From assembly GCF_900215335.1 (NCBI RefSeq), contig NZ_OCMT01000004.1, forward strand, positions 434,001-498,000: DNA of 64,000 nucleotides. Direction: 5' to 3'. Each line of letters starts with the position of its first letter. The first letter of the stretch is position 1. Source of the DNA: Pedobacter xixiisoli (GTDB lineage: Bacteria; Bacteroidota; Bacteroidia; Sphingobacteriales; Sphingobacteriaceae). The notes under the pieces were generated by a model, which saw only the letters and a program-made list of their open reading frames with translations, ran no database searches and had not been told where the DNA came from. Positions 18,403 through 23,256 of this stretch are shown piece by piece. A program made the position numbers and the translations under genes.

Positions 18403-18530
18403 GTATGTTGTTATTGGAAGATTAAAAAACTTATAGGGCCTAGGAATTGTTTTGCTAGCTGTAAAACAAAAACTGCCAACTCTTTTATGTACTTTCCCAA
18501 AAAATCAGGATAATTGATATCTTTTGTTAT

Positions 18531-18538
18531 TAAATTTG
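18531..18538 (+). promoter_or_regulatory. -7 promoter box before the M49-type peptidase
   Basis: TAAATTTG fits TAnnTTTG. It lies downstream of the upstream-most TTG start (18514) and therefore supports ATG 18598 as the true start. A TTG at 18514-18516 is only 14 bases upstream, short for a -33 element. Confidence 0.5.
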
Positions 18539-18597
18539 GCAAATTAAATTTTACGAATTTAACACATTCACGCAAAACCCCGAAAAAACAATCGCAT

Positions 18598-20274
18598 ATG
18601 CGCAAAATAAATATTAAAATTGCTAAGGGAATCCTTTTAGGAGCAGCAATAGCGACCGCTATAACCGCTTGTACCGGCAATAATACTAACGAAGATAATT
18701 CGGCAAAAAAAGAAGTAGACTCACTTACAGAATATGTAGCACAACGATTGCCTATCTATGAAAAAGTTAGGTTAAGCACAGATTTGAATTTGCTAACACC
18801 AAACGAGCGTAAGGTTTTGCCGCTGTTAATAGAAGCAGCACAAATTATGGACGAACTTTTTTGGAAGCAAGCTTATCCGCAACGCGATAGTTTATTGGCG
18901 ACCATTAAAGACGAAAAAACTAGAGAGTTTCTAAAAATCAACTATGGACCTTGGGATAGATTGAATGGAGATAAGCCTTTTGTTGCTGGCATCGGCGAAA
19001 AGCCATTAGGGGTTACTTTTTACCCATTGGATATGACCAAAGAAGAATTGGAAAAATCTGATGTGAAAGATAAACAAGGACTTTATTCGGTAATCGTAAG
19101 AGAAAATGGAAAGTTAACTTCTGTTCCCTACCATCTTTATTTTGCTACCGAATTACAAAAAGCCAGCAGCTTATTAAAACAAGCCGCTTTATTGGCTGAT
19201 GATGAAGGGCTTAAAAAATATTTAAACCTTAGAGCTGATGCATTGGTAACAGATAACTATACCGCCAGTGATTACGCTTGGTTAGATATGAAATCGAATG
19301 GATTAGATATCATCATCGGCCCGATCGAAAACTATGAAGATAAATTATTTAACGCCAGAGCTTCGTTTGAGAGCTATGTGCTAGTAAAAGATAAAGAGTG
19401 GAGCAAACGCTTGGCTAAATATGTTTCGATGCTTCCTGAGCTTCAAAAAGGTTTACCGGTAGATGCTAAATATAAGAAGGAAGTGCCAGGCACAGATTCT
19501 GAACTGAACGCTTACGATGTGGTATATTACGCTGGAGATTGCAACGCAGGTTCTAAAACCATTGCCGTGAACTTGCCAAACGACGAAAAAATCCAGCAGG
19601 AAAAGGGAACTCGTCGCTCGCAGTTAAAAAATGCGATGAAAGCGAAGTTCGATAAGATTTTAGTGCCAATCTCGAATGTTTTAATTGATAAGGAGCAACA
19701 AAAGCACATCAAGTTTGATGCCTTTTTTGCCAATGTAATGTTCCATGAAGTGGCTCACGGCTTGGGTATTAAAAACACAGTTACTGGAAAAGGAATGGTA
19801 CGTACCGCCTTGCAAGAGCAATATTCTTGGTTAGAAGAGGGCAAAGCCGATGTTTTAGGTCTATACATGGTAACTGGATTACTTAAAAAAGGTGAACTAG
19901 AAGGAGATATCAAAGATTTTTATACCACCTACATGGCAGGAATTTTACGCTCGGTTCGTTTCGGTGCATCTAGCGCCCACGGAAAAGCGAATATGCAGTG
20001 TTTCAATTTCTTCCAAGAAAAAGGTGCATTTGAGCGTACAGCTGCGGGAACGTACAAGGTTAACTATGATAAATTTGCTACAGCAATGAATGAATTAAGC
20101 GCTGTGGTATTGGCATTGCAAGGAAACGGAGATAAAGCTGCGGTAGAAAAAGCGCAAAAGGAAAGAGGGATTATCAAAGCAGAACTACAAGCTGATTTGG
20201 ATAAATTGTCTCAAAAAGGAATTCCGGTAGATGTGATTTTTGACCAAGGCGTAGATGTTTTGGGCATGAAATAA
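18598..20274 (+). CDS. Peptidase M49 (DPP III-like) lipoprotein with an HExxH site
   Basis: Dipeptidyl-peptidase III family. ATG 18598 starts a lipoprotein signal (AIATAITAC, Cys24); 558 residues. The zinc site is HEVAH with His383, and the third ligand lies in WLEEGKAD (Glu414). Classical DPP III has a six-residue HExxGH; a five-residue HExxH form is known from Caldithrix abyssi, and this protein fits that type. LYFATELQKAS, DNYTASDYAWLDM and IGPIENYEDKL match bacterial M49 proteins. The last codons and stop are repeated downstream in a 167-base tandem duplication. A periplasm-facing location is inferred from the lipobox. Confidence 0.85.
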   Translation: MRKINIKIAKGILLGAAIATAITACTGNNTNEDNSAKKEVDSLTEYVAQRLPIYEKVRLSTDLNLLTPNERKVLPLLIEAAQIMDELFWKQAYPQRDSLLATIKDEKTREFLKINYGPWDRLNGDKPFVAGIGEKPLGVTFYPLDMTKEELEKSDVKDKQGLYSVIVRENGKLTSVPYHLYFATELQKASSLLKQAALLADDEGLKKYLNLRADALVTDNYTASDYAWLDMKSNGLDIIIGPIENYEDKLFNARASFESYVLVKDKEWSKRLAKYVSMLPELQKGLPVDAKYKKEVPGTDSELNAYDVVYYAGDCNAGSKTIAVNLPNDEKIQQEKGTRRSQLKNAMKAKFDKILVPISNVLIDKEQQKHIKFDAFFANVMFHEVAHGLGIKNTVTGKGMVRTALQEQYSWLEEGKADVLGLYMVTGLLKKGELEGDIKDFYTTYMAGILRSVRFGASSAHGKANMQCFNFFQEKGAFERTAAGTYKVNYDKFATAMNELSAVVLALQGNGDKAAVEKAQKERGIIKAELQADLDKLSQKGIPVDVIFDQGVDVLGMK

Positions 20275-20528: not shown

Positions 20529-20657
20529 TTTATTTTTTAAGTTTTTTATGGCTGCGTAGTCAAATTGAAAAAAAGGCAAAAAGTAGCCTGATGTCTATTT
20601 TCTCAGCTATTTTTATGCTTTTGTGTTCTGTCTCATAAAAAAAAATGAAAATTTCTT

Positions 20658-20685
20658 GTAACCTTTTGCAACGCACTATCGTCTA
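20658..20685 (+). promoter_or_regulatory. Predicted ECF-sigma promoter of the barrel receptor gene
   Basis: GTAACC (20658-20663), 16 bases, CGTCTA (20680-20685). The layout (AAC in -35, CGTC in -10, 16-base spacer) is that of ECF sigma factor promoters and matches the element before the ECF sigma gene at 38440-38467. No TAnnTTTG box is seen nearby. The leader to the ATG is about 125 bases. Confidence 0.65.
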
Positions 20686-20814: not shown

Positions 20815-23256
20815 ATGAAGAATATATACTTTTTAATCATTGCACTCTTAACCTCAGCTTCGCTGTTTGCCGAAGCGAATAGAGGGAAACAGATTGATGT
20901 GAACGGCACTGTTTTAGATGAGCAACGTAAACCTATAGATTACGCCACGGTGGGGTTATTCAAAGCCTCAGATTCTTCGTTGGTAAAAACAGCAATGACT
21001 ACACCAGAGGGGAAATTCAACTTCCCAAATGTTGCTGCTGGTAGCTACTATATCAAAATCAATATGATGGGTTATCAAATCTATAAAGGAAAAGCTTTCT
21101 CGGTAGGAGAAACCATCATGAATTTACCTGATATTCTGCTAAAATCAGATAGTAAAACTTTAAACACGGTAAGCGTTACTACGGTAAAACCACTTTTAGA
21201 ACGCAAAGCAGATAAAATGGTCATGAATGTAGAGAATAGTTCTGTCGCTGTGGGTTCTTCAGCGTTGGAAGTTCTGCAAAGAGCACCAGGCGTTACCGTA
21301 GATCAAAACGATCGTATATCGATGCAGGGAAAACAAGGCGTACTGATTATGTTAGACGGTAAACAAACTTATATGAGTCAGGCAGATGTGGCCAACTTAC
21401 TGCGCAACATGCAAAGCTCTTAGATTGAAACCATCGAACTGATTACCAATCCATCTTCAAAATACGATGCTTCCGGTAATTCTGGAATCATCAATATCAA
21501 AACAAAGCGGTCTAAAAATGGCGGTGCCAACGGTAGCTTTGTTGCGGGTACTGCTTATGGTAAAAACCTAAGAGGAAACACTGGCTTAAACCTAAACTAC
21601 AGAAGTAAAGGTGTTAACGTTTTTGGTAGTTATAATTTTAACAAAGGAGCAAGGTCAAACGTAATTAATATCGACCGTATAGCTAATGCCACTTCCACAG
21701 ATCCAGAAACTTATTTTTCTCAGAAAGGTGGCGATGATAGAGATTTCGAAAATAACAATTTTAAAGTAGGAGTAGATTTCTTCATCAACAAGAACAACAC
21801 TATTGGAGTGTTGGCTAACGGCTATTTAAATAGTGGTTTGGAGAAAGCGAATAACCATACGTCTATCGGCAAATCGTTTAAACAGGTAGATTCTACTTTG
21901 ACTACCACGAACAATCAAAAATCTAGCTACAGAAACTTTGCCTATAACCTTAACTATAAATCTATTTTAGATACGACAGGTCAAGAACTTTCTGCCGATG
22001 TGGATTACTCGAGATATAACAGTAGAGATTATGCAGAATTGGTAAACGAATTGTTGTTTCCTAATGGTTCGCCAGTTAAACCCATTGGACGTTTGAGAAA
22101 TAACAGCCCAAGTACAATTGATATTAAAGCGGTAAAAGTTGATTATACTTTTCCGATTAATAAAACAACGAAATTTGAAGCGGGGATTAAAAGCAGTTGG
22201 GTAGAAACGGATAACGATTTGCGTGCCGAGGAATTTAAGACCAATGCTTGGCAAAACGATGTCCGTAGAAGTAACCGATTTGTGTACGATGAAAATGTAA
22301 ATGCGGTGTATTCTAATTTTAGCAAACAGTTTAAAAATACGAGCGTACAGTTGGGTTTAAGGATGGAACAAACCAATTCTAAAGGCAATTTGGTGACCAC
22401 TAACAATGTGGTAGAGCGCAGTTACTGGGATTTCTTTCCGACCGTTTATATACAACAAACTTTGTCTAAAAATCACCAAGTGGGCGTTTCTTATGGAAGA
22501 AGAATAGATAGACCTAGTTACGACGCTTTAAATCCATTTATTTACTTTTTGGATGAATATACCTACAATCAAGGAAATCCTTTCTTAAAACCGCAGTACA
22601 CGAATAATTATGAGATGAATTATACTTTCATGCAGAAATACTTCTTGAATGTTGGTTATAGCGTAACTAATGACGCAATTACGGAAGTGATTCTGCCAAA
22701 TGAAGAACGTAAAGCTTTGTTTCAAACCAATGAAAACTTACAAACGCAAACAGTTATATCGGCTAACCTAACAGTGCCCGTTAAAGTTAAAAAATGGTGG
22801 ACAATGAGTAATAACCTGAACGTTTTCCATATGGCTTTTGAAACACCAAACTTAAATGGTCAGGCTTTGAAAACGGGGCAAACTTCTTACCAGTTCCGTA
22901 TGCAAAACAACTTTATCATTATGGATGGTTTAACAGCAGAGCTTAATGGTAACTATGAATCGCCGTTAACTTACGGAACACTTGATTTGGAAGAAAGAGC
23001 TTATATCGATTTCGGTATCAGCAAAGCGATTCTAAAGAAAAAAGGAAGTTTAAAATTTGCGGTGTCAGATGTTTTTGATACCAATAGAACAAGATTGAAA
23101 AGTGCTTACCCAGGCTTGTCGTATAATTTGTACCAAAAGAATGAGACACAGTTATTCCGTTTAAACTTTACCTACAGATTTGGTAAAAATGAAATTAAAC
23201 CAGCTCGTAGACGCTCTACAGGAACTGAAGCAGAACAGGGAAGGATGAAGAATTAA
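20815..23256 (+). pseudogene. Outer-membrane beta-barrel (TonB-dependent receptor-like) gene interrupted by one amber codon
   Basis: The frame is open for 814 codons except for a TAG at 21421-21423. The N-terminal part has a signal peptide (MKNIYFLIIALLTSASLFAE), a carboxypeptidase-regulatory-like domain (VNGTVLDEQRKPIDYATVGL) and a plug (LEVLQRAPGVTVDQNDRIS). The stop falls in the plug between LLRNMQSS and IETIELITNPSSKYDASG, where relatives usually have a glutamine-like codon; CAG or CAA to TAG would be one or two changes. From 21424 to 23256 the same frame encodes the rest of the plug and a barrel ending FRLNFTYRFGKNEIKP. The break is recent, since no other damage is seen. It may be a pseudogene, a phase- or suppressor-dependent gene, or a sequencing error. 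Confidence 0.85.

Follow-up and report, generated by a model that had tools for sequence, protein, structure and literature searches.

Pedobacter xixiisoli carries, within the 64,000-nucleotide stretch of contig NZ_OCMT01000004.1 that was analysed here (the window), a gene for an outer-membrane receptor whose reading frame is interrupted by a single TAG. This raises two questions. Is the amber codon a real lesion in the cells, an error in the sequence, or a codon that is read through? And if it is a lesion, how old is it? From the comparisons described below, the sequenced strain has probably lost the receptor through a nonsense mutation of very recent date, and a base-call error is the main rival to this explanation.

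The receptor gene and its two pieces

The receptor gene occupies positions 20815–23256 of the window on the forward strand and encodes a CarboxypepD_reg domain, a plug and a barrel of the OMP_b-brl_3/TonB-dependent type. On translation, the frame comprises 813 codons and a terminal TAA, and its only internal stop is the premature amber codon 203 at 21421–21423 (forward strand), which separates NMQSS from IETIELITNPSSKYD in a plug motif. In the whole-genome search the receptor was matched over 813/813 positions with '1 TAG' inside. The orthologues of the nearest relatives are likewise 813 residues long, and relative to them no indel or frameshift was found in the gene. With one internal stop, no indel and relatives of equal length, the claim of a single TAG in an otherwise intact frame, made in an earlier sequence-only reading, is borne out.

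The predicted truncated product (20815–21423, forward strand) has 202 residues, the length that had been claimed for it and that the translation confirms. It consists of a signal peptide (assigned by eye), a carboxypeptidase-regulatory-like domain (Pfam PF13620/PF13715 at residues 29–121) and a partial plug, with no barrel. The second piece, of 610 residues, matches PF14905 across the barrel well above the gathering score (3.7e-116; 389 bits against a cut-off of 27), and PF00593 is matched as well. No SusC-type NCBIfam match to the receptor was obtained, and a sequence search with the second piece turned up no relative of solved structure. The gene thus has the same domain order and the same Pfam matches as the PF14905 outer-membrane β-barrel family with CarboxypepD_reg, from which it differs in being interrupted. 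Past the stop, GTG at 21808 is the first in-frame start codon listed; a product begun there would have no signal peptide, so that no exported barrel or receptor would be expected from such a restart.

Orthologues and the ancestral codon

The genome is a 4.97 Mb draft in 8 contigs and is 99.7% complete. At a criterion of E ≤ 1e-270, 85 of 145 same-genus (Pedobacter-group) genomes, including that of the sequenced strain, hold an orthologue of the receptor. The other 84 orthologues are all free of stops and the sequenced strain alone has one, as is expected of a recent nonsense pseudogene. Since both sides of the stop form one protein, unbroken in all 84 of these orthologues, the interruption is more than a chance arrangement of reading frames. 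No match to the same site was found in viral contigs.

Codon 203 is GAG (Glu) in both nearest species, which makes a G-to-T transversion the simplest change; the CAG or CAA previously expected as the ancestral codon does not fit the close relatives. When the orthologues are read codon by codon, this position is mostly Glu (GAG/GAA) and sometimes Gln or Asp. Elsewhere in the protein, 259 columns are invariant among 28 other orthologues, and none of them is changed in the sequenced strain.

The best named relatives include Pedobacter helvus, an isolate labelled Flavobacteriaceae bacterium PS02338, and P. ureilyticus. The nearest two relatives share about 84% DNA identity with the strain over the receptor gene, so the comparison lies between species, without a second genome of the same species. 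Within the genome, a second intact copy of the receptor was looked for and none was found; the closest paralogue is only 41% identical, and loss of the receptor is therefore not obviously covered by a duplicate.

Selection on the sequenced lineage

How long has the gene, if it is broken, been free of selection? A codon model of 11 species with a separate ω for the sequenced strain's own branch gave 0.027 over the whole gene and 0.022 past the stop, compared with 0.044 and 0.040 on the other branches. An ω of 1 is rejected on the strain branch (p = 2e-21 for the gene, 3e-17 past the stop). No relaxation was detected on this branch; the difference from the other branches (p = 0.07 for the gene, 0.06 past the stop) is in the direction of stronger constraint. 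Among the strain-specific codon changes past the stop, 4 are nonsynonymous and 89 synonymous.

In a second model, of seven species, a final fraction f of the strain branch was made neutral. An f of 0.01 costs 1.8–2.0 log units and an f of 0.02 costs 3.7–4.1, so that the neutral share of the strain branch is at most about 1%; this bound would be looser, at a few per cent, if selection before the lesion had been tighter than the background. Such a tiny share means that the lesion is very recent, or is not real, or has no effect on the protein. This share and the ω of 0.022 past the stop do not fit an old, decaying pseudogene. Relaxed selection is not required of a recent pseudogene, and the claim that the event is recent gains strong support from the absence of any decay.

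The same 11 species, compared in 20-codon windows, also show a stretch of low synonymous variation at codons 570–596 (22522–22602, encoding about FLDEYTYNQGNPFLKPQYTNNYE), where synonymous differences are about half the gene average (0.23 against 0.48).

Promoter-like element and gene neighbourhood

Upstream of the receptor, at 20657–20685 on the forward strand, lies a promoter-like element, TGTAACCTTTTGCAACGCACTATCGTCTA. These 29 bases, TGTAAC...CGTCTA (TGTAACCTTT, 13 bases, then CGTCTA), are located about 130–160 bases 5′ of the start. The element is intact in the sequenced strain, in keeping with a recent lesion, and nearly invariant overall in the 11 aligned species, with both ends invariant in 11/11, and its pattern has exactly one exact match in the 4.97 Mb genome, the one upstream of the receptor. 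It may be an extracytoplasmic-function sigma promoter, possibly the target of a dedicated sigma factor of this class. Nothing specific on sigma promoters of Pedobacter was found in the literature.

The upstream neighbour (18514–20274, forward strand) encodes a peptidase of family M49 (dipeptidyl peptidase III-like), and an M49 gene is found directly 5′ of the receptor in 10/10 close relatives, preceded in this conserved neighbourhood by an amidase gene. CheB-like and signalling genes follow 3′ of the receptor in most relatives. The M49 neighbour hints at a peptide-related role for the receptor.

Interpretation of the amber codon

Could the full-length receptor be made by reading through the amber codon, whether by a suppressor tRNA, by programmed recoding or by reassignment? 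The frame is fully preserved past the stop, and low-level read-through of TAG is known in E. coli, where basal read-through follows the order TGA > TAG > TAA (PMC11126739). However, none of the 43 tRNAs has a CTA anticodon (ARAGORN on all 45 tRNA-family matches of the genome, the two weakest of which are not tRNAs), and in this 99.7% complete genome an amber suppressor tRNA is rejected. Release factor 1 (prfA) is present as an uninterrupted match above the cut-off, and TAG terminates 68 of the 305 ORFs of at least 300 codons in an 800 kb part of the contig; the intact factor and this normal stop usage exclude a reassigned TAG. No recoding structure was found around or downstream of codon 203, where folding does not go beyond that of shuffles (z of 0.19, −1.57 and −0.50), nor is there synonymous constraint around the codon, the variation there being at the gene average. 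The relatives have no stop in the gene and hence no conserved recoding site, and no other TAG-interrupted gene was seen in the 800 kb. The locus shares with amber read-through or recoded genes (suppressor tRNA, pyrrolysine, reassigned TAG) an in-frame TAG and conserved sequence after it, but unlike them it has no amber tRNA, retains RF1, uses TAG as a normal stop, is a single case and lacks a conserved site. The read-through option of the sequence-only reading is therefore not supported. Efficient read-through of the codon is improbable; we regard a full-length receptor made by one of the three routes named above as very unlikely, and a regulated full-length receptor made by an unrecognised route that reads amber efficiently (near-cognate decoding or an undetected RNA) as more unlikely still.

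The sequence-only reading also named a base-call error. With such an error, with one in the consensus, or with a minority variant in the culture that was sequenced, the gene would be intact in the organism. This fits a gene without any relaxation of selection, a lesion of one base, and a draft assembly whose 8 contigs include some N; G-to-T is, moreover, a common type of sequencing damage. On the other hand, draft genomes with good coverage seldom contain wrong consensus bases. We also scanned the 800 kb for in-frame coding that continues on both sides of a stop, a search for single-stop interruptions as distinct from frameshifts. It gave 20 candidates, of which, by eye, only the receptor locus looks like an interruption; the other 19 resemble the end of one gene with the next gene, or the start of it, behind. 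Being the sole single-stop gene interruption by our reading, the locus again appears to be more than chance, and without further cases the assembly does not abound in errors of this kind. An error or a minority variant is a possibility of some weight, though on balance rather unlikely.

We infer that the cells do carry the nonsense change and lose receptor function through it, although the absence of decay would fit a sequencing error or read-through equally well. In the favoured explanation, a recent nonsense mutation, a single G-to-T change would have converted a glutamate codon of the sequenced strain to TAG, at a very recent date compared with the strain's separation from the nearest known species. 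At codon 203 ribosomes would stop and release a stub without the β-barrel, and the receptor would be lost. The loss may itself have been selected, through escape from phage or bacteriocin or through laboratory passage. Outer-membrane receptors like this one are often targeted by phage and bacteriocin selection, and the change is fresh; yet in one strain a selected and a neutral nonsense mutation look alike in sequence, and we consider this special case of the nonsense mutation unlikely.

The interrupted receptor gene is an event of an ordinary kind. It resembles the recent single-nonsense bacterial pseudogenes that are the topic of the review PMC11078800, with one inactivating stop, a gene otherwise unchanged and intact relatives; the Pedobacter lesion is too fresh for measurable decay, and otherwise there is no notable difference. 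Before an in-frame stop in one draft genome is called a pseudogene or a case of recoding, the reads should be consulted. Although of little importance by itself, the locus would provide a clear case of a lesion observed in a gene ahead of any decay.
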